Source: Halopiger goleimassiliensis (GTDB lineage: Archaea; Halobacteriota; Halobacteria; Halobacteriales; Natrialbaceae). From it: a stretch of DNA of 64,000 nt. Below are positions 44,904 to 56,330 of the stretch, in pieces. The stretch is from positions 2,183,360 through 2,247,359 of the forward strand of contig NZ_HG315690.1 in NCBI RefSeq assembly GCF_000455345.1, in the 5' to 3' direction. The notes under the pieces were generated by a model. The model did no database searches and was not told where the DNA came from. It saw only the letters and a list, made by a program, of their open reading frames with translations. Both the position numbers and the translations under genes were made by a program. Position 1 is the first letter of the stretch, and each line of letters begins with the position of its first letter.

Positions 44904-46019
44904 CTAGAAAGTCGGGACCCAGGACGCGTCGGGGAAGACTCCCGCGAAATACATGATTGCGACGAGGAACGTCCCGAAGACGATCGCGGCCGCCGGGGGG
45001 TCTACGTGCGTGTCGCCGTGGGCGTAGAAGACGCGCTGGAACAGTTCACCGAACAGCGCGCAGATCACGCCGAAGACGAGCGCGACGAGCAACGCGGGGC
45101 CTTCGCCGAGACCGGCGACGACGGCGTCGCCGTCGGCCATCACGGCGAGCGCGGCCGTCCCTGCTGGGAGCGTGATGTGGTGCGTAACGGGCACCTTCTC
45201 GATGCCGAGGTTGAGGAACAGCAGCGACGCCGCGCTGATCCCGAATCCGAGGAACGCCCTCCCAGTCACGATCGAGACCCAGCCGCCGAGAATCCCGACG
45301 AACGCGCCGAGCGTGGCGACGTGGGCCCACTTGTACTGGTGGCCGAGCCACGGTTCGACTTTGAGGCGAGCGGACGCCGACGAGTCGGCAGTCTCCTCCT
45401 GCTCCGGAACGATGGCGTCCCCGCCTTTCGGCGTCTCCGAATCGGTCACGCGCTCCCCGCCGTCCGTCGCTGGTCGACGCTCCTCGCGCTCGAACGGCGA
45501 CATGTCCAGGATGCCGCTGCCCCGAACCTTGCCGATGATGCTGTAGCCGAGGATCAGGCGATGGAAGATCGCGGACAGGACGACGCCCATCGCGATCGGA
45601 TCGTACGGCAGGGCGAGGGTATCGAAGGCGACCTGCATCCACCAGCCGAGCAGGCCGAAGCCAGCGCCGACGAAGAGCACGTCGGGTTTCGTCCCGAGCG
45701 CCTGCGCGATGTTCTTCGCCTGGTGGTAATCGTACTCGAAGCCGTCCATGTATCCTTTCTTCGCGGCGTAGGCGGTCGCGGCCACGCCGCCGCCGAAGCT
45801 GACCGCCGGGGAGAACGCCGGGCCGAACGCGATCGCGTTCGTGATCTGGGCGTAGTCCGGGCCGCCGACGAGTATCGCGGCTTCACCGGCGATCACCATG
45901 AATCCGGTAAAGACGAACGCCGGCAACGGGCCGAACGCCGCGCCGAACGCGCCGCCCCCCAGCGAGGCGACGATCTCCGGGAGGCTCGTAAGGGCGTCGA
46001 TCAGAGCGTTGACCGTCAT
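44904..46019 (-). CDS. Multi-pass membrane protein of the glycerol cluster (GlpX-like in haloarchaea)
   Basis: 371 residues with about eight hydrophobic helices and a central acidic loop (about 175-220, DGGERVTDSETPKGGDAIV). The N-terminus is Gly/Ala-rich (SLGGGAFGAAFGPLPAFVFTG). Haloarchaeal glpK genes are often followed by such a protein, proposed as a glycerol facilitator and labelled GlpX in Haloferax; it is unrelated to bacterial GlpX phosphatase. Its ATG overlaps the glpK stop by 4 bp, supporting a joint role in glycerol entry. Confidence 0.78.
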   Translation of the reverse strand: MTVNALIDALTSLPEIVASLGGGAFGAAFGPLPAFVFTGFMVIAGEAAILVGGPDYAQITNAIAFGPAFSPAVSFGGGVAATAYAAKKGYMDGFEYDYHQAKNIAQALGTKPDVLFVGAGFGLLGWWMQVAFDTLALPYDPIAMGVVLSAIFHRLILGYSIIGKVRGSGILDMSPFEREERRPATDGGERVTDSETPKGGDAIVPEQEETADSSASARLKVEPWLGHQYKWAHVATLGAFVGILGGWVSIVTGRAFLGFGISAASLLFLNLGIEKVPVTHHITLPAGTAALAVMADGDAVVAGLGEGPALLVALVFGVICALFGELFQRVFYAHGDTHVDPPAAAIVFGTFLVAIMYFAGVFPDASWVPTF

Positions 46020-47560
46020 TCACCACCACCGTCCCTGGCCCAGTCACGCGACCGCTCGATGGCATCGATCCAGCGGTCGTAGCGTGCGTCGGCCGTCTCG
46101 CGGTCCATCGCGGGATCGAACTGGCGGTCGACCTGCCAGTTGTCACGCAGTTCCTCGAGGTCGTCCCAGTAGCCGACGGCCAGTCCGGCGGCGTAAGCCG
46201 ACCCGAGCGCCGTCGTCTCGTCGACGACGGGGCGAACGATCTCCGAGCCGATGATATCGGACTGGAGCTGACAGAGGAAGTTGTTCTTGACCGCGCCGCC
46301 GTCGACCTTCAGCGTGGTCATCTCGATGCCCGAATCGGCCTCCATCGCCTCGGCGACGTCGCGGGTCTGGTAGGCGATCGACTCGAGCGTCGCCCGGACG
46401 ATGTGTTCCTTCCGGGTACCGCGGGTCATGCCGACGATGGTGCCGCGGGCGCGCTGGTCCCAGTGGGGCGCGCCCAGTCCCGTGAAGGCGGGGACGACGT
46501 AGACGCCGTCCGTCGAGTCGACGCTGCGGGCCAGTTCCGCCGTTTCCGAGGGATCGTCGATCAGGTCGACGTCCTCGAGCCACTCGATAGCCGCGCCGGT
46601 GACGAAGATCGAGCCCTCGAGGGCGTACTGGACCGGCTCGCCGGAACGCTGGAAGCCGATCGTCGTCAGCAGGCCGTGATCGCTCTCGACGGCCTCGTCA
46701 CCGGTGTTCATCAGGAAAAAGGAGCCGGTGCCGTAGGTGTTCTTCGCGTCGCCCGCGTCGAAGCAGGTCTGGCCGAACAGCGCGGCCTGCTGGTCGCCCA
46801 GCGCGCCCGCGACGGGGATCTCGGCCTCGAGGAAGCCGTCGGGATCGGTCGTCCCGTAGGTGGCCTCGTCGCTGGACGGGCGCACTTCGGGGAGCATCTC
46901 GCGCGGGATCGAGAACTCCGCGAGGAGGTCGTCATCCCACTCGAGGTCGTGGATGTTGTACAGCATCGTCCGCGAGGCGTTCGTGACCTCGGTGACGTGG
47001 TTGCCCGTGAGGTTGTAGATCAGCCACGTGTCGATCGTACCAAAGAGGATCTCACCCTGCTCGGCGCGATCGCGGACGTCCTCCGGCCGCGCGCGTTCCA
47101 TCTTGATCGGGTCGGCCTCCTCGAGCAACCACTCGGCTTTCGTCGCCGAGAAGTAGGCGTCGGCCTCGAGCCCCGTCTTCTCGCGGATCTCCTCGACCTT
47201 GCCTTCGTCCTCGAGTTGCTCGACCCGTTCGGTCGTCCGCCGATCCTGCCAGACGATGGCGTTGTGGACCGGGTTCCCGGAGTCGGCGTCCCAGAGCAGC
47301 GTCGTCTCGCGCTGGTTGGTGACGCCGATCGCCTCGAGCTGGTCGGGGGCGATCCCCGCGCGCCCGAGGGCGTCCGTGATGACCTGTTTGGTGTTCTCCC
47401 AGATCTCGATCGGGTCGTGTTCGACCCAGCCTGGTTCCGGGTAGATCTGTTCGTGTTTCTCGTAAGCGTTCGCGACGACTTGGCCTTCGTGATCGAACAC
47501 GAGGAATCGCGTGCCAGTCGTCCCCTGGTCAACTGCGCCGACGTACGTATCCACTGTCAC
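46016..47560 (-). CDS. glpK: Glycerol kinase
   Basis: 514 residues from the GTG at 47560 (in-frame GTGs at 47554 and 47569 are alternatives; no ATG fits). The ATP site GAVDQGTTGTR, glycerol-binding ITNQRETT-like GVTNQRETTLLWD and the GTGSFFLMNTG motif are intact. It phosphorylates glycerol to sn-glycerol 3-phosphate, the entry step for glpABC. Haloarchaea live with algae that release glycerol, so this is a major carbon route. The gene is divergent from glpA and overlaps the membrane protein gene. Confidence 0.96.
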   Translation of the reverse strand: MTVDTYVGAVDQGTTGTRFLVFDHEGQVVANAYEKHEQIYPEPGWVEHDPIEIWENTKQVITDALGRAGIAPDQLEAIGVTNQRETTLLWDADSGNPVHNAIVWQDRRTTERVEQLEDEGKVEEIREKTGLEADAYFSATKAEWLLEEADPIKMERARPEDVRDRAEQGEILFGTIDTWLIYNLTGNHVTEVTNASRTMLYNIHDLEWDDDLLAEFSIPREMLPEVRPSSDEATYGTTDPDGFLEAEIPVAGALGDQQAALFGQTCFDAGDAKNTYGTGSFFLMNTGDEAVESDHGLLTTIGFQRSGEPVQYALEGSIFVTGAAIEWLEDVDLIDDPSETAELARSVDSTDGVYVVPAFTGLGAPHWDQRARGTIVGMTRGTRKEHIVRATLESIAYQTRDVAEAMEADSGIEMTTLKVDGGAVKNNFLCQLQSDIIGSEIVRPVVDETTALGSAYAAGLAVGYWDDLEELRDNWQVDRQFDPAMDRETADARYDRWIDAIERSRDWARDGGGE

Positions 47561-47892: not shown

Positions 47893-49623
47893 ATGGCACG
47901 TGACACCGACGTACTCGTTCTCGGCGGCGGATCGACAGGCTGTGGCATCGCCCGAGATCTGGCGATGCGCGGCCTCGAGGTCACCCTCGTCGAGCGCGGG
48001 AATCTGACCCACGGGACGACCGGGCGGATGCACGGCCTGCTCCACAGCGGGGGTCGCTACGCGGTCTCCGACAGGGCGAGCGCCCGAGAGTGCATCGAGG
48101 AAAACCGGGTTCTCCGGGAGATCGCCGGCCACTGCGTCGAGGAGACCGGCGGGCTGTTCGTCCAGCGACCCGAGGACTCCGACGAGTACTTCCAGGAGAA
48201 ACTCGAGGGGTGTCGCGCCTGTGACATCCCGGCGCGAGTGCTCTCGGCCCGCGAGGCCCGCGAGATCGAACCCTACCTCGCCGAGGACATCACGCGCGCG
48301 ATCGAAGTCCCCGACGGAGCGGTCGACCCGTTTCGACTGTGTGTCGCGAACGCCATCGACGCCGAGAGGCACGGCGCACGGATCGAGACCCACGCCGAAG
48401 TGGTCGACCTCCTGCGGGAGGGCGACGACGTCTACGGCGTGAAGGTGCGCCACGAGTCGGGGCCGGGCAAGCGCACGCACGCGACCCCGGGGACGACCGA
48501 GGAGATCACCGCCGAGTACGTCGTCAACGCGACGGGCGCGTGGGCCGGGCAGATCGGCGCGATGGCCGACTTAGCGATCGAGGTCCGGCCCTCGAAGGGC
48601 GTGATGACGATCATGAACGTCCGGCAGGTCGACACCGTGATCAACCGCTGTCGACCGAAAGGCGACGCCGACATCGTCGTCCCTCACGAGACGACTGCGA
48701 TTCTCGGTACAACGGACGAGGAGGTCGACGACCCGGACGACTACCCCGAAGAGCAGTGGGAGGTCGATCAGATGATCGACACCCTTTCAGAACTGGTGCC
48801 GATCCTCTCGGAGGCCCGGACGATCCGGTCGTTCTGGGGCGTCCGTCCGCTCTACGAGCCCCCGGGGACCGGCACCGACGATCCGACGGACATCACCCGC
48901 GACTTCTTCCTGCTCGATCACGCCGAGCGCGACGGCGTCGCCGGCATCTCGAGCATCGTGGGCGGCAAGTTCACCACCTACCGGGCGATGGCCGAGGAGA
49001 TCTCCGATCACGTCTGCGAGCGGTTGGGCGTCGACGCCCGGTGTGCGACCGCCGACGAACCCTTACCCGGCAGCGAGGACCTCGCGGTGCTCGAGGAAGG
49101 GATGGACGACTTCGGCCTCCGCTCGCCCGTCGCCCGCCGGAGCAAGCAACGGTTGGGCAGTCGCGCGAAGGAAGTGCTCGAGACCGACGAACCGAATCCG
49201 GTGCTCTGCCAGTGCGAGGGCGTCACCCGCGCGGAGGTGCAGGACGCGATCGAGGGGTCGGGCTCGGATCTGAACGCCGTCCGCATCCGCACCCGGGCCT
49301 CGATGGGTAACTGTCAGGGCGGCTTCTGCTGTCAGAACCTGGCCAACGAACTCCACCCCGAGTACGACGAGGAGACGGTCCGCGAGGCGCTTTCCGAACT
49401 CTTCCAGGAACGGTGGAAGGGTCAGCGCCACGCGCTCTGGGGCGAACAGCTCTCGCAGGCCATGCTCAACTACGCGCTGCACGCGACGACGATGAACCGG
49501 GACCGCGATCCGGCGAGCGACGCGCGGGACCTCGAGTACGACGCCTTCGACGGCGGGCGACGGGCGGAGCCACGCGCCGACGGGAGCGGCCAGCCGATGG
49601 CCGACGACCGAGGTGACCGCTGA
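47893..49623 (+). CDS. glpA: Anaerobic glycerol-3-phosphate dehydrogenase subunit A
   Basis: 576 residues. The FAD motif [21 protein letters not shown] begins near residue 7. [21 protein letters not shown] and the [12 protein letters not shown] motif match GlpA. The C-terminal BFD-type domain has four Cys in CQCEGVTR and GNCQGGFC for a [2Fe-2S] cluster. It oxidises glycerol 3-phosphate to DHAP and passes electrons to GlpB/C. A disordered acidic tail follows. It leads the glpABC operon. Confidence 0.95.
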
Positions 49624-49624
49624 G

Positions 49625-51022
49625 ATGGCCATCGAGGACGACGTCCTCGTCATCGGCGGCGGCCTGGCGGGGGCGATGGCGGCGCTGTCGGCCGCAGACG
49701 CGAACGAAGACGCGCGCGTCCGGCTGGTAACCTACAAACAGAGCACGCTGCGTCACGCCAGCGGGCTGATCGACGTGCTGGGCTACGCGCCGGACGGCGT
49801 CTCCGCGAGCAACGCGAGCGGCGGTTCGTCGGACTCGTCCGACGTAAATGGACCGCTGACCGATCCCTTCGACGTGCTCGACGATATGCCCGAGGGCCAC
49901 CCCTACGAACGCGTCGGGAGCGAGGCGGTCCGCGAGGGACTGGCGCTCTTCGACGAGGTCGTCGGCGACGCCTACGCGGGCGCACACACGGAGACGAACG
50001 CCTTGGTCCCCACTCACGGCGGCACGGTCAAGCCGACCGCGCGCTACCCCGTCTCGACGGCTGCGGGACTGGCTAGCGACGACCGCGACGCCCTGCTGGT
50101 CGGCTTCGAGACGCTGCCGGACTTCGACGCCCCGCTGGCCGCCGCGCACCTCGAGGCCGCGGGCGTGCCGTTCTCGGCGCGGGGCGTCACGATTCCCTTC
50201 CCCGGAATCGTGCGCGACGACGCGAAGGTGACCCGGTACGCCCACCTGCTCGACCGGGACGAACCCGTGACGACGGGTGCCGGCGAGACCGGCGCGCGCG
50301 AGGCGCTCGCGACGACGGTGGCCGACCACCTCGCCGGCGAGTCCCGCGTCGGCCTCCCCGCCGTGCTGGGCGACGAGCACGCCGCGGCGGTGCGGGCCGA
50401 CCTCGCTGACGCCCTCGGCGTCGACGTCTTCGAGGTCCCGATGGGGCCGCCGAGTCTCCCAGGTATACGACTCGAGGATCGGCTGTTCGAGGCGCTCGAG
50501 GACGCCGACGTCCGGGTGACCTCGGGCGTGCCGGTGATCGATTACGAGACCGCCGACGCGTCGAGGAGCGCCACCGGCACGGGTGCGACGGCTACCGACG
50601 GCGGGACGGCCGGCGACGACCGGATCGATCACGTCGTCGTCGACCGCAACGGCACCGAGATCCCCCACCGGGCCGAGCAGTACGTCCTCGCGACCGGCGG
50701 ACTGGTCGGCAAGGGCGTTCGCTCGGAACGCGACCGAGTGTTCGAACCGATCTTCGACTGCTACGTCCCCCACGCCGCGGACCGCTACGACTGGTTCGTC
50801 GACGACGTCTTCGGCGAACAGCCCTACGCGCGGTTCGGCCTCGCGCCGGACCGCGAGCTACGGCCGCTCGACGCCGACGACGAGCCCGAGTTCTCGAACC
50901 TCCGGGCGGCGGGGGCCGTCCTGGGCGGTTACGACTTCGCGGCCGAGAAGTCCGGCGCTGGCGTCTCGATCGCGACGGGCTACGTCGCGGGGCGACGGGC
51001 GGCCGAGGAGGTGGGGCGATGA
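49625..51022 (+). CDS. glpB: Anaerobic glycerol-3-phosphate dehydrogenase subunit B
   Basis: 465 residues from the ATG at 49625 (1 bp after the glpA stop; an in-frame GTG at 49613 would overlap it). The FAD motif VLVIGGGLAGAMAALSAAD and the later FSARGVTIPFPGI and GGLVGKGVRSERDRVFEPIF match GlpB. It is the second flavoprotein subunit of the complex. An Ala/Gly/Thr-rich insert (about 300-325) is low complexity. Its stop overlaps a 32-codon micro-ORF by 4 bp. Confidence 0.92.
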   Translation: MAIEDDVLVIGGGLAGAMAALSAADANEDARVRLVTYKQSTLRHASGLIDVLGYAPDGVSASNASGGSSDSSDVNGPLTDPFDVLDDMPEGHPYERVGSEAVREGLALFDEVVGDAYAGAHTETNALVPTHGGTVKPTARYPVSTAAGLASDDRDALLVGFETLPDFDAPLAAAHLEAAGVPFSARGVTIPFPGIVRDDAKVTRYAHLLDRDEPVTTGAGETGAREALATTVADHLAGESRVGLPAVLGDEHAAAVRADLADALGVDVFEVPMGPPSLPGIRLEDRLFEALEDADVRVTSGVPVIDYETADASRSATGTGATATDGGTAGDDRIDHVVVDRNGTEIPHRAEQYVLATGGLVGKGVRSERDRVFEPIFDCYVPHAADRYDWFVDDVFGEQPYARFGLAPDRELRPLDADDEPEFSNLRAAGAVLGGYDFAAEKSGAGVSIATGYVAGRRAAEEVGR

Positions 51023-51117
51023 GCGAACCAACCGACGCGCGAACCGAGCGTAGACCGGCCCGCTCGAGTGAGGGGGCCGACGCCGAGCGACAGATGCGGA
51101 CACAGGTGATCTCATGA
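51019..51117 (+). CDS. 32-codon micro-ORF bridging glpB and glpC
   Basis: ATG at 51019 overlaps the glpB stop (ATGA), and its own stop at 51117 overlaps the glpC ATG (51114) in the same way. The peptide would be polar (SEPTDARTERRPARSSEGAD) and ends RQMRTQVIS. Without it ribosomes leaving glpB would face a 91-bp gap to glpC. A translational-coupling role is inferred; the peptide itself may have no function. Confidence 0.45.
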   Translation: MSEPTDARTERRPARSSEGADAERQMRTQVIS

Positions 51118-52448
51118 GCGACGCAGAACGACCGATCGACGATCACGTACCGGGCGCGGAAGACGAGGAGTTCGAACCGGTCCAGGTGTTCCCCGAGGCC
51201 GAGGAGATGGATCTCCGGCCGGGCGCGGACAACTGTTACAAGTGCTCGACCTGCGACACGAACTGTCCCGTCGCCGAGGTCGACGACGAGTTCCCCGGCC
51301 CGAAGTTCCAGGGGCCGGAACAGTGGCGGCTCAAGCGCCAGGAGGACCACGACATCGACGACTCCGTGATGAAGTGTTCGAACTGCATGCGCTGTGACGC
51401 GGCCTGTCCCTCGGAGGTGCCGCTGTCGCAGATGCACAACACCGCCCGTGCGGAGTACGTCGAAGAGAACATGAGCAAGCTTTCCCGGGAGTACTGGCGC
51501 AACCGGATGCTCGCGAACTACCGCCGGTTGGCACCGCTCGGCGCGGCCTTTCCCCGGACGGCGAACTTCGTGACCGGGCTGTCGATCACGAAGTGGCTCG
51601 GCGAGAAACTGCTCGGGATCACGAGCGAGCGCGAACTGCCGGAGTTCGCCACCGAAACCTTCCGCGAGTGGTGGGCGAAACGAGGCGGCGCACAGGTCAC
51701 AAATCCGGACAAGCGCGTCGCCTACTTCCACGGCTGTTACGCCAACTACAACACCCCCGAGGTGGCGAAGGCGCTAGTGCGGGTCTACGAACACTTCGGT
51801 TACGAGATCCTGCTTCCCGACCAGGACTGTTCCGGCACGCCGATGTTCGCCAACGGCATGCTCGAGGACGCCCGCCGGGCCGCCGAGACCAACGTCGAGG
51901 AACTCGCCGCGGCCATCCGGGACGGCGCGGACGTCGTCGCCTCCTGCAGTTCGTGTTCGATGTCGCTGCGCCAGGAGTACCCCGAACTGTTCGACTTCGA
52001 GGACACCGAGTCGGTCGCCGAGAACACCTGGGACGCCCTCGAGTACCTCCGGGTCCACGAGGACCTCGAGCGCGAACTGGAGGGTACCGAAGTCGAGGGG
52101 TTCGACGACTTCGCCTATCACGCACCGTGTCATTCACGTAATCAGGGCCTCGATAGACAGACGATCGAACTGATGGACGCGATCGACGGCATCGAGGCCC
52201 ACGACGTGGGGGACTCCTGTTCGGGCATCTCGGGCACCTACGGCTGGAAGGCCGAGAACTACGAGACGTCGATGGCCATCGGGGAAGAGATGTTCGAACA
52301 CATGGAGGACGCCCCCGCCGAAACCGGGCTGACGGAGTGTCCCACCTGCTCGATGCAGATGGGCCACGGCACCGGCTACGAGATCAAACACACCCTCGAG
52401 GTGCTCGAGGCGGCCCTCGTCGGGCCGGAGGCCGGCGGCAGCGAATGA
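51114..52448 (+). CDS. glpC: Anaerobic glycerol-3-phosphate dehydrogenase subunit C
   Basis: 444 residues. Two [4Fe-4S] motifs (CYKCSTCDTNCP near 41-52 and CSNCMRCDAACP near 88-99) are followed by two CCG-type domains (HGCYANYNTPE, SCSSCSMSLRQEYP, APCHSRNQG, CPTCSMQMGHG). It transfers electrons from GlpAB to the membrane quinone pool. An N-terminal acidic extension is present. Its stop overlaps the Cdc6-like gene by 4 bp (ATGA), so that gene is in the operon. Confidence 0.94.
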   Translation: MSDAERPIDDHVPGAEDEEFEPVQVFPEAEEMDLRPGADNCYKCSTCDTNCPVAEVDDEFPGPKFQGPEQWRLKRQEDHDIDDSVMKCSNCMRCDAACPSEVPLSQMHNTARAEYVEENMSKLSREYWRNRMLANYRRLAPLGAAFPRTANFVTGLSITKWLGEKLLGITSERELPEFATETFREWWAKRGGAQVTNPDKRVAYFHGCYANYNTPEVAKALVRVYEHFGYEILLPDQDCSGTPMFANGMLEDARRAAETNVEELAAAIRDGADVVASCSSCSMSLRQEYPELFDFEDTESVAENTWDALEYLRVHEDLERELEGTEVEGFDDFAYHAPCHSRNQGLDRQTIELMDAIDGIEAHDVGDSCSGISGTYGWKAENYETSMAIGEEMFEHMEDAPAETGLTECPTCSMQMGHGTGYEIKHTLEVLEAALVGPEAGGSE

Positions 52449-53605
52449 ACCTGCAGGAGCGCATCGACCGACGACGATCCGCCCACGGGAACGGAACGAT
52501 CGTCGTCGACAGAACCCATCTCGCGCCGGTCGTCCACCGGCCGGAGCCGGTCGGTCGTGGCTCGGTGATCGAACAGTTGCTGGACGCCCTCGAGCCGGTG
52601 TTCGGCGGCGACCTCCCGGACCCCGTCGCGGTCGTCGGCCCACAGGGAGCGGGGAAATCCGCTGTCGTAACGGCGACGTTCGACGCCCTGAACGATCGAC
52701 TCGGGACACCGGATCGGTCGATCGAGACGACGACTCGAGCGGGTCCTGCCGAACCGGTGACGTGGTTCGTCACCGTCGACGCGCGCGGCATCGACAGCGA
52801 GTTCGCGTTCTACCGGGCGCTCCTCTCGGGGATCACGTCCGAGCCGGTTCCGAGCGGCGGGATCGGAACCGAGGAGGTACGCGACCGGCTCCGAAGCCGT
52901 CTCGATCGATCCGACCGACGCGCCGTCGTCGCCGTCGATCACCACGACGAACCCGGCAGTCTCGGCTTCGATCGCGTCCGTGACCTCCTCGAGCCGATGG
53001 CAGACAGCCTCTCGCTGGTCGCCGTCGGCCAGGAGCCCCCCGACGGGTGGCACGAGGCGCGGATCACCGTGCCGGCCTACCGCCAGCACGAACTCGTCGA
53101 CGTCCTTACCGCCAGAGCCTCGACCGGCCTCGCACCGGGCGTGCTGGAACACGAGGCGATCCGCGACCTCGCGGACTGGGCCGACGGCGACGCCCACGAC
53201 GCGTTCGCGGCGCTCTTTACCGCGGCCGTGTTCGCCGGCGACGACGGCGGGCCGATCACCGACGCCCACCTCGAGCGCGCGAAGGCGGACGTCCCTGCGG
53301 ATAGTGTCCACGTCGGACGCGCGCTGGCCGTCCCACGCACCCGACAGCGGGTGTTGCTGGAACTGGTGCGGACGGAGGACACGCGGGCGGCGATCCGAGA
53401 CCTGGCCGAGGTCATCGCCGACCGGACGGACCTGACGGCCGGTACGGTCGAGCGATTCCTGTACGAACTCGCCGACCGGGGCGTCTTAGAGCGAACGCCG
53501 TTGCCAGGGGAGGGAAGCGGCCGCAGTCCGAGTTCCGTCGAGCCACGGTTCCCACTGACGGTCTTCCGGACGCTGACGACTGCGGAGGGAGCGGACTCGA
53601 CGTGA
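52445..53605 (+). CDS. Cdc6-like AAA ATPase with winged helix
   Basis: 386 residues from the ATG at 52445. Walker A GPQGAGKSA near 68-76; the Walker B-like strand reads VVAVDHHDE; the lid has DGDAHDAFAAL where Orc1/Cdc6 has GDARxAL. A winged helix occupies about 290-355. Differences from true Orc1/Cdc6 initiators (changed sensor residues, placement in a metabolic operon, no visible origin repeats nearby) suggest a paralogue recruited for another task. It overlaps glpC by 4 bp and is 65 bp upstream of a CHAT protease gene. Confidence 0.75.
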   Translation: MNLQERIDRRRSAHGNGTIVVDRTHLAPVVHRPEPVGRGSVIEQLLDALEPVFGGDLPDPVAVVGPQGAGKSAVVTATFDALNDRLGTPDRSIETTTRAGPAEPVTWFVTVDARGIDSEFAFYRALLSGITSEPVPSGGIGTEEVRDRLRSRLDRSDRRAVVAVDHHDEPGSLGFDRVRDLLEPMADSLSLVAVGQEPPDGWHEARITVPAYRQHELVDVLTARASTGLAPGVLEHEAIRDLADWADGDAHDAFAALFTAAVFAGDDGGPITDAHLERAKADVPADSVHVGRALAVPRTRQRVLLELVRTEDTRAAIRDLAEVIADRTDLTAGTVERFLYELADRGVLERTPLPGEGSGRSPSSVEPRFPLTVFRTLTTAEGADST

Positions 53606-53670
53606 CGTATGCCCAGTAGAAACTTTTAGTGATACGGCCAGAAACTAGGTCGATATTCGATCACGGAGAT

Positions 53671-55746
53671 ATGACGATCACGTTCGAGGAAACGGCGGCA
53701 CCGCCCGGGATCACGATACACGATTCGATCGAGCAGCGGCGACTCCACCTCGAGACGAGCGATCCCGTGGCGCTCGAGTCCGTCGACACCGAGGCCTTCG
53801 AGTTCCCGCTCGATCGGGCCTGCCGGTTCGAGGCCGAGGAGGTCACCCTCGATCAGACCCCGTCCGTGACGATCCACGGCGCGACCGGCGAGAGCGAACG
53901 GAGCCTCACCGCGGGCGAGACCGCCCGACTCACCGACGGCGTCCAGTACATCGGGCTGAGCGGGGCGATCAAACTCTACTGTCGGGTCGAGGGTCCCGGA
54001 ACGATCGAACTCGGGATGACGTCGGTCCGGATCGCGGTCGACCGGCCGCGGACGATCACGCTCGGCGCGCGGTCCCTCCACGACAGGCCAGCCGCGACGG
54101 TCGTGACCGACTCGAGCGTCGACTCGATGATGGAGGCCGTCTCCGTCCTCTCCTCGGCGCTGAAGACCACGTCGCCGGAACGGACGTGGCCGACCCTCAG
54201 GGGCCACCCGCCGCTGGTCGAACTGGGCGATCGCCTGTCGATCCCGGACGAACTCGAGCGACCCACCGGCGAGGTCGAACTCGTCGTCCCCGCGGAGTAC
54301 GGGGCCGTGTTCACGGCTGCGCCGCTCGCGTTCTTCCTCGAGGCGCGCGTCCGTTCCGGCGAGTGCCCGCGGCTCCGGACGCCACGGTTCGAGTACTCCC
54401 TGGGACGGAAGCGGCCGCTCGCCGACGACGTCGGACGCCTGCTGAAGCGGTCGTTCTTCCTCGACTGTCTCGCCCGCACTGAGGGGGTCTACCAGTACGA
54501 CCTCCACGAGCGGTCCGTCCTCGAGGACGACCTGCCGTTCGACCTGGCCGAGACGTACGAGCGGTCGCTACCTGAACGGCTGGAGCGATACCTCGAGGTG
54601 CCGTACGATCGGCTCGAACCACATATGCCGCGGTGGCCGCTGACCGCCCACGTCCCGGCGGACCCCGAGGGGGTCGAACTCCTCCCGTTCATCGCCAACG
54701 AACTCGGGATCGTCCGGGAAGCGAACGGCCGGACGCCCGACTCGGTCCCCGGTCCGGAGCCGGCGAACGCGCAACTGGTCAGATCGGCCGCCCAGTACCG
54801 ATCTTCGCCGTCGAGTGGCGAGGAGTCCACGTTCGTCACGCCCACCGGTGCCGACGAGTCGGTCGAGCAAGCCTGGTTCGGCGACGGGATCCCCACCGGG
54901 GCGTCGAAGGCCACGATCGAGGCCTACCGGAATCAACTCGACCGCGATCCGCGCAGCGAGTCGATCGAGATCCTGCTCGTGTGTAACGACGCTCGGATGA
55001 TCGAAGAACACGACCTCCTCGACGAGGCCTACGGCAACCGGGAGGAACTCCCCTTCGAGATCCACTCCGAGTTCGGCGTCGATACCGATCGGATGGCCAC
55101 GTTGCTCGCCGACGGCGGCTACGACTTCCTCCACTACATCGGTCACGCGACCGAGGACGGACTCGAGTGTCCCGACGGCGACCTCGACATCCGGTCGCTC
55201 GAGTCGGTCGATCTCGGGGTGTTCTTCCTCAACGCTTGCCGGTCGTACGAACAGGGACTTGCGTTGACTCGCCGCGGCGCTTACGGCGGCGTGAGTACCT
55301 ACAGCGACGTGATCAACGACGACGCGGTCGAAGCCGGGGAGACGCTGGCGCGCCTGCTCAACCGCGGCTTTCCGCTGAGAGGAGCGCTCGAGATCGCCCG
55401 TGAGTACAGCACGCTCGGCGATCAGTATCTCATCGTCGGTGACGGGTCGGCCGACATCGCCCAGTCGGATGGTGGTGCGCCGGCGATCATCGAACTCACG
55501 TCCGAAACCGAAACAAAGTACGAATTCAGCAGTCGATCGTACTCGACGAAGGAGTACAAACTGGGGACGGCGACGGCGACGACGTTCGAATCGGTTCTCG
55601 ATCGCCACCTCACGCCGGGGCGAGTACCACCGTCTCGAGTGAGTCGTCACTCACTGCTCGATTACTTGACGTGGACGGAGTACCCGATCCGCTTCGAGGA
55701 GCAACTGTACTGGAACGATGGAATCGGAATCGACGTACTCGACTAA
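53671..55746 (+). CDS. CHAT-domain caspase-like protease
   Basis: 691 residues. The N-terminal ~150 residues are beta-rich, the middle (150-440) is mixed with low-complexity Ser/Glu stretches, and the C-terminal CHAT domain holds the dyad: His492 in FLHYIGHATEDG and Cys523 in FFLNACRSYEQG. Both are in the right secondary-structure context for CHAT/caspase-HetF proteases. No membrane segment or signal is seen, so it is cytoplasmic. A TATA-like CTTTTAGTG lies about 45 bp upstream. CHAT proteases elsewhere act in signalling, cell death or phage defence; the substrate here is unknown. Confidence 0.82.
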   Translation: MTITFEETAAPPGITIHDSIEQRRLHLETSDPVALESVDTEAFEFPLDRACRFEAEEVTLDQTPSVTIHGATGESERSLTAGETARLTDGVQYIGLSGAIKLYCRVEGPGTIELGMTSVRIAVDRPRTITLGARSLHDRPAATVVTDSSVDSMMEAVSVLSSALKTTSPERTWPTLRGHPPLVELGDRLSIPDELERPTGEVELVVPAEYGAVFTAAPLAFFLEARVRSGECPRLRTPRFEYSLGRKRPLADDVGRLLKRSFFLDCLARTEGVYQYDLHERSVLEDDLPFDLAETYERSLPERLERYLEVPYDRLEPHMPRWPLTAHVPADPEGVELLPFIANELGIVREANGRTPDSVPGPEPANAQLVRSAAQYRSSPSSGEESTFVTPTGADESVEQAWFGDGIPTGASKATIEAYRNQLDRDPRSESIEILLVCNDARMIEEHDLLDEAYGNREELPFEIHSEFGVDTDRMATLLADGGYDFLHYIGHATEDGLECPDGDLDIRSLESVDLGVFFLNACRSYEQGLALTRRGAYGGVSTYSDVINDDAVEAGETLARLLNRGFPLRGALEIAREYSTLGDQYLIVGDGSADIAQSDGGAPAIIELTSETETKYEFSSRSYSTKEYKLGTATATTFESVLDRHLTPGRVPPSRVSRHSLLDYLTWTEYPIRFEEQLYWNDGIGIDVLD

Positions 55747-55802
55747 CGGTCGGTCTTCGCTTCGGTACTCCACCTGAGGAATAGCGCCTTTCGATCGATC
55801 GG

Positions 55803-55937
55803 TTAGGGGCCGACTTCGCTCGTCGTCCCAGCGATCACCGTCCCCGACTGACTGAGAAGGACGAACAGCGTGAACAGCACACCGATCATTCGTGGGTTCT
55901 GTGCCAGGTAATCTTTCATCGTGTCTGTGGCGGACAT
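55803..55937 (-). CDS. 44-residue membrane peptide (DUF7503-like)
   Basis: ATG 55937, TAA ending at 55803. The start SATDTMKDYLAQNPRMIGV is followed by one hydrophobic helix (about 17-35) and ends TSEVGP. I recall haloarchaeal DUF7503 proteins as very similar in length and in the NPRMIGVLF segment. A TATA-like ATTTTATTT on the minus strand (about 55960-55970) is 25-30 bp upstream, giving a leaderless mRNA. It converges with the CHAT gene (56 bp apart). Orientation and size suggest a small regulator or partner; unproven. Confidence 0.65.
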   Translation of the reverse strand: MSATDTMKDYLAQNPRMIGVLFTLFVLLSQSGTVIAGTTSEVGP

Positions 55938-56330
55938 TACGGCCTAACGGTTGTCACCATTGGAAATAAAATTATCTTATAATTCCATACCCATTTGACA
56001 CAATAAATACAGCTGGTGGACCTCGTGTCGCTCGATCACAAGGTTGTAAATCACCCCTGATCGGGCTCGAGACTGGATATTCACTCGTACCCCAGCCTGG
56101 TAGCGCGTCGTATCGATCGCGGTCAGTTCGTCGACACGCTATCGGCGGCGCGAGGAAACGGTCGGATCGATGCCCACGGTCGCCGCAAACCGCAGTCCTC
56201 GTAAGCAGACGGGTCGCGCTCGCAGTAACCTGCCACTCGAGTGGATGCGCTCCGAAGGCTTGCTATCGATACGGAAGTTCCGGCGAGAATCGGTCGCGTT
56301 CGATCGCCCGACGACTCGGTCGGTGGGGAA
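55938..56330. other. 393-bp intergenic region, AT-rich at one end
   Basis: The left 90 bp are AT-rich (GAAATAAAATTATCTTATAA at 55964-55983) and contain the small peptide's promoter. The rest is GC-rich and has no credible ORF, tRNA or known RNA. It lies downstream of the aIF1A gene. Confidence 0.5.

Follow-up and report, generated by a model that had tools for sequence, protein, structure and literature searches.

A predicted CHAT-like protease and the DUF7503 microprotein form a conserved gene pair in haloarchaea

Introduction

The CHAT proteases whose partners are known act mostly in defence or CRISPR settings. Among enzymes with the caspase fold, gingipains R and K cleave after Arg or Lys, separase is specific for Arg, and in several clan CD enzymes the residues of the S1 pocket lie in the region that follows the first strand of the catalytic domain. 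Of the CHAT systems with a described partner, the nearest is Craspase, whose protease Csx29 cuts a dedicated cognate protein, Csx30 (PMC10028731). In Haloferax volcanii a strong caspase-like activity cuts after Asp (LEVD, VEID), and no gene has been assigned to it (PMC3615174).

Here we analyse a stretch of 64,000 nucleotides from Halopiger goleimassiliensis (the window), in which a predicted CHAT-like protease is encoded beside the glycerol (glp) locus and faces the gene of a small membrane peptide. A first-pass annotation had read these genes as a glycerol operon extended by a Cdc6-like ATPase and a CHAT protease, and had compared the trio of ATPase, protease and peptide to signal-and-kill or defence systems. 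We find that the protease and the peptide, a member of the Pfam family DUF7503, are a conserved two-gene module that is separate from the glpC-ATPase unit. No paper describing the pair was found in a literature search, and as far as that search shows the module looks undescribed.

Layout of the locus

The features of the locus are as follows, in window coordinates.

about 46016-47551, minus strand: glpK, divergent, upstream of glpA
47893-49623, plus strand: glpA, anaerobic glycerol-3-phosphate dehydrogenase subunit A (TIGR03377, 748 bits)
49613-51022, plus strand: glpB (NF003722, 719 bits)
51114-52448, plus strand: glpC (NF008369, 590 bits)
52445-53605, plus strand: AAA+ ATPase ORF of the Orc1/Cdc6 fold with a C-terminal winged helix (AAA_16 4e-14, Cdc6_lid 1.7e-5, HTH_IclR 5.5e-4)
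53606-53670, plus strand: ATPase-CHAT intergenic region; a T-run at 53624-53627 resembles a promoter element and lies 47 nt upstream of the CHAT ATG
53671-55746, plus strand: predicted CHAT-like caspase-fold cysteine protease, 691 aa (AlphaFold2 model, structural matches)
55144-55146, plus strand: codon of the predicted catalytic His492
55237-55239, plus strand: codon of the predicted catalytic Cys523
55803-55937, minus strand: DUF7503 microprotein, 44 aa, one membrane helix (PF24335, E 4e-20), convergent to the protease gene
55890-55892, minus strand: codon of DUF7503 Arg16 in the HPR/NPR motif, always basic, best candidate cleavage site
55938-56010, minus strand: AT-rich stretch ahead of the DUF7503 gene, probably its own promoter

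The ATPase frame starts at 52445, so that it shares an ATGA overlap with the end of glpC at 52448; 65 bp lie between its end at 53605 and the start of the protease frame at 53671 on the same strand, and the minus-strand DUF7503 frame lies 56 bp past the protease stop. The first-pass annotation had read these junctions correctly, as well as the intact His492/Cys523 dyad (residues counted from the ATG at 53671) and the 44-residue membrane peptide. The arrangement is far beyond chance, because it recurs, conserved over its full length, across Natrialbaceae and DUF7503 is under purifying selection (pN/pS 0.31). At the other end of the glp genes, a 371-aa ORF (44904-46019, minus strand) adjoins glpK and is found next to glpK again in most of the glp loci that were inspected; it matches no Pfam family at E 0.01 and is a conserved neighbour of glp.

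The protease and its closest structural relatives

The 691-residue protein has no Pfam match at E <= 1 and no NCBIfam match, a profile search with PF12770 (CHAT) finds nothing anywhere in the window genome, and no PADLOC model matches either the protease or the DUF7503 peptide. A sequence search of solved structures returned only a marginal match, to SAVED-CHAT (E 0.5), and a structure comparison was therefore needed. The AlphaFold2 model, computed with the three sequence rows from plasmid records left out, has a pLDDT of 87.7. It comprises a beta-rich N-terminal domain (about residues 1-148), a conserved RGHPP region, and a pseudo-caspase plus catalytic domain (about 321-598). Residues 321-598 align in Foldseek and VIA-align with gingipains R and K, SAVED-CHAT, separase and Craspase, with Z between 12 and 20. 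The predicted catalytic residues are invariant in the family members that cover the respective columns (His492 in 165 of 165, Cys523 in 164 of 164). Motif conservation and predicted structure thus indicate a caspase fold with an intact dyad, and proteolytic activity is predicted. The label of CHAT protease given in the first-pass annotation stands on these grounds, whereas Pfam and NCBIfam profiles lend it nothing; a family of caspase-fold proteases that is nearly universal in haloarchaea, and whose members usually have a microprotein partner of their own, escapes the Pfam CHAT model.

The best Foldseek match is SAVED-CHAT (PDB 8tl0, 3e-7; VIA-align Z 19.0 over 170 residues), which shares the caspase-fold CHAT catalytic domain and the His/Cys dyad; in place of a recognised SAVED domain the window protease has its beta-rich N-terminal region and a microprotein partner. 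The gingipains (PDB 1cvr, 4ief, 4rbm) align over about 245 residues with Z 19-20, but they are secreted bacterial enzymes, whereas no secretion signal is seen in the window protease and its setting is presumably cytosolic. Separase (PDB 5fby, 5fc2; Z 17) shows the same arrangement of pseudo-protease and protease domains at about 15% sequence identity; a cohesin- or securin-like partner is not known for the window protease. Craspase shares the caspase/CHAT fold (Z about 14), but its partner is a 565-aa protein and not a convergent 44-aa membrane peptide. No CRISPR genes occur among the scanned neighbours of the protease loci, and neither Cas7-11, Csx30 nor a sigma factor is found among the annotated or profiled neighbour genes, which are part of the neighbouring ORFs. 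The folds nearest to the window protease cut after Arg or Lys, whereas the activity in H. volcanii cuts after Asp. Asp440 (Asp or Glu in 176 of 180 sequences) and Glu446 (Glu or Asp in 178 of 180) both follow the first strand of the catalytic domain; placed by topology and not by a superposed model, they could be S1-pocket residues, which fits specificity for a basic P1 residue.

The protease and DUF7503 are a conserved pair

The peptide scores 71.6 bits against PF24335 (gathering cut-off 27). Members of the family share the motif Y-L-x-x-[HN]-P-R-M-I-G, a hydrophobic stretch that ends in S-Q-A-G-T-V-A-A-G, and a short variable tail. In 112 of 138 distinct sequences the tail ends in GP, an ending that is absent in some members (L093-L097). 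The residue after the proline is Arg in 128 and Lys in 10 of the 138 sequences; this is the sole position that is always basic, and it borders the membrane helix on what is presumably the cytosolic side. The AT content upstream of 136 DUF7503 genes is highest, at 0.85, some 35 nt ahead of the gene start, and the gene probably has its own promoter in this region. Tandem duplicated DUF7503 genes were seen at L150:2670-2979, some 700-800 bp past the protease, and at G134:C1:486534-486796.

A search of Natrialbaceae with the protease gave matches in all 125 genomes. Of the best 30 loci, 29 have glpC and the ATPase immediately upstream of the protease, and 27 have DUF7503 in convergent orientation. 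At 80 organism-named loci that were found with the protease alone, DUF7503 is convergent within 330 bp in 72 and at 679 bp in one more, and some of the unpaired loci end at a contig edge. Conversely, a search with DUF7503 alone added 23 loci, most of them in other families, and all 23 have the protease in convergent orientation, with gaps of -10 to 105 bp between the open frames; in the first locus set about 96 of 100 DUF7503 matches were paired with the protease. This amounts to about 150 paired loci from many families, with Haloferax, Haloarcula, Halobellus, Halorussus and Haladaptatus among the genera, and the pairing is kept at glp and non-glp loci alike. Plasmids of Haladaptatus and Halorussus also carry the pair; there the peptide is absent from the gene table, which is incomplete. 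In two cases DUF7503 has been separated from the protease, by 4.5 kb (L156) and by about 32 kb (G040), and it is intact in both; it therefore acts through its product, and not solely in cis.

The pairing has exceptions. Halorubellus-type genomes (L096/G012, G013, L189) keep the protease, and no DUF7503 is found in them genome-wide by Pfam. The window genome encodes a second, divergent CHAT-like gene (L154; G000:C1 near 373607-375553), for which a profile search finds no DUF7503. Convergent to this second gene, and ending a few bases beyond it, is a 38-aa ORF (L154:1364-1483, MGDSKNRLWLAV...STYGGP) that has a DUF7503-like GGP tail, without a clear membrane helix.

Distribution and phylogeny

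The protease family is present in 271 of 292 Halobacteria genomes. DUF7503 is present in 44 of the 53 listed genomes of the order, a count taken by kinship to the window genome; none was detected in the listed genomes outside the order, and a further 231 unlisted genomes had no match. The first-pass annotation had pointed to defence systems, a reading that is now unlikely, also because no PADLOC model matches the protease: a family so nearly universal, for which no viral contig in IMG/VR was found to encode the protease, speaks for a core role, and phage defence is not favoured. A core and widely kept pair would extend the known roles of CHAT proteases beyond defence and CRISPR settings, and it offers concrete genes that can be tested in Haloferax for the caspase-like activity. 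HVO_2248, a hypermotility gene, was considered as a Haloferax member of the family and dropped, its described neighbours being unlike those of the Haloferax CHAT loci.

In a tree of 117 protease copies, a single fully supported clade holds all glp-linked copies and also some that are not near glp; the window protease carries the label "other" in this tree for the sole reason that its locus had been truncated within glpC. All copies adjacent to DUF7504 are placed in the other clade. The attachment to carbon metabolism noted in the first-pass annotation is thus real as synteny within one protease clade, whereas a functional link is hypothetical. DUF7504 (PF24336; the Pfam numbers of DUF7503 and DUF7504 are consecutive) lies directly upstream of the protease on the same strand at 28 loci, sometimes fused to HalOD1, and Haloferax contributes several of these (L223, L227, L228, L230-L232). 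The presence of DUF7504 upstream of the protease at many non-glp loci suggests that different input genes drive the pair at different sites.

The ATPase belongs to the glp locus

The ATPase has the domain order of the archaeal Orc1/Cdc6 initiators (AAA+, lid, winged helix), and its model matches archaeal Orc1 with a VIA-align Z of 22.8 over 331 residues. It differs from the initiators in its linkage to glp and in scoring far below the NCBIfam cut-off (72 bits against 181 for TIGR02928); in PADLOC only its winged-helix region gives a match, a single marginal one. The Walker A Lys is kept in the window and is replaced by Thr in several orthologues (L075, L078, L079, L080), hinting at a loss of ATP hydrolysis in these relatives. 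Walker B reads D165-H166, and the residue after the Asp is an invariant His and not an acidic one.

The ATPase was detected in 300 of 391 haloarchaeal genomes. Outside Natrialbaceae, all 14 inspected ATPase loci are glp loci, with the gene after glpC or in the glpK neighbourhood, and none of them contains the protease. Within the family, genomes in which the ATPase was not detected keep the protease and DUF7503, either at glp (L081, L083, L085, L088, L089) or away from it (L082, L084, L086, L087). At most loci the glpC stop and the ATPase start overlap, by 1 or 4 bases, which makes for a tight junction; the spacing between the ATPase and CHAT is loose, from 61 to 213 nt. All 26 sampled glp-locus intergenic sequences have a T-run at 44.6 +/- 3.0 nt upstream of the CHAT ATG; its frequency at 38-55 nt is 0.92, against 0.03 expected from shuffles, and measured from the ATPase stop its position has a standard deviation of 35. 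The CHAT-like gene thus has an upstream element that looks as its own promoter would, and because the T-run keeps its distance to the ATG while the gap varies, the view that the protease extends the glycerol operon is doubtful.

The first-pass grouping of three genes therefore divides. The protease and DUF7503 recur together, but the ATPase does not accompany the protease in the 14 loci inspected outside the family: it is a glp gene in families whose glp locus is free of CHAT, it is missing from genomes that keep the pair, and a promoter-like element stands between it and the protease. Its conserved winged helix and its unvarying linkage to glp point most readily to a probable regulator of the glp genes outside the protease module, a DNA-binding protein that would derive from Orc1/Cdc6 and belong to the glycerol locus.

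Proposed mechanism and alternatives

For the locus as a whole we tentatively favour, at a little short of even chances, a two-unit account in which the protease cuts DUF7503 at the membrane. DUF7503 would be a membrane microprotein with its N-terminus inside, expressed from a promoter separate from that of the protease. Once switched on, the cytosolic protease would cut it at the membrane edge, after the always-basic residue (between HPR and M-I-G), and cleavage may free or unmask the membrane helix or an N-terminal peptide and so change the state of the membrane, with a stress switch or regulated death as the outcome. The switch would probably come from exchangeable upstream genes, such as DUF7504 and its HalOD1 fusions at many other loci; at the glp locus no switch gene is clearly assigned. 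We favour cleavage because the closest folds cut after Arg or Lys or cut cognate proteins (gingipain R/K, separase, SAVED-CHAT, Craspase), and because the DUF7503 residue is always Arg or Lys while positions 440 and 446 of the protease are almost always acidic. Several points count against it. A basic residue beside a membrane helix could equally set topology, according to the positive-inside rule. Covariation between Arg or Lys in DUF7503 and the pocket columns of the protease showed nothing clear, and no DUF7503 is recognisable for the protease genes of G012, G013, L189 and L154. The wider proposal of a near-universal haloarchaeal caspase-like membrane switch, in which the protease cuts its cognate microprotein at an always-basic residue and inputs that vary with the chromosomal site, such as DUF7504/HalOD1 or the glycerol locus, lead to stress responses or regulated death, we regard as possible but doubtful.

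The same pairing evidence would be expected if DUF7503 were not cut but served as a membrane anchor, inhibitor or activator subunit that tethers the protease and, until a signal arrives, keeps it inactive or else licenses it. The protease might dock on the conserved Y-L-x-x-H-P-R, which presumably faces the cytosol, and separate promoters would allow constant production of the peptide; however, the anatomy of the pair gives binding no edge over cutting, Csx29 does cut its partner (PMC10028731), and we consider this reading rather unlikely. By eye, the hydrophobic core followed by small residues (SQAGTVAAG) resembles a Sec signal peptide, and with the short variable tail and its frequent GP end this could make DUF7503 a precursor whose released C-terminal peptide signals between cells or senses the outside, with the protease acting in the response. 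This is improbable, given that conservation is strongest on the presumed cytosolic side (PR..G) and not in the tail, whose GP end is missing in L093-L097.

The original trio, in which the Cdc6-like ATPase senses the glycerol state, switches on the CHAT protease and couples carbon metabolism to cell death, could draw on the gene order glpC-ATPase-CHAT-DUF7503, kept over much of Natrialbaceae, and on the resemblance of the ATPase fold to apoptosome and NLR switches (CED-4, Apaf-1 and NRC proteins in the Foldseek list). Yet there are glp loci that have the ATPase but not CHAT and others that have CHAT but not the ATPase, the protease has its own promoter-like element, and several ATPase orthologues have lost the Walker A Lys, with His after the Walker B Asp, which makes such a coupling quite improbable. 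Least of all do we expect the glp linkage to be an inherited neighbourhood only, with the pair a housekeeping proteolysis module that has no killing role. This would agree with presence in nearly all genomes and with the single clade of glp-linked copies, since the linkage could have arisen once and been inherited thereafter; but it is compatible with cleavage of DUF7503 and differs from the account we favour mainly in the outcome. Often, though not in the window, the next gene after the glp-linked pair encodes what by eye is an AglB-like oligosaccharyl transferase of about 950-1000 aa (L157, L187-L192).
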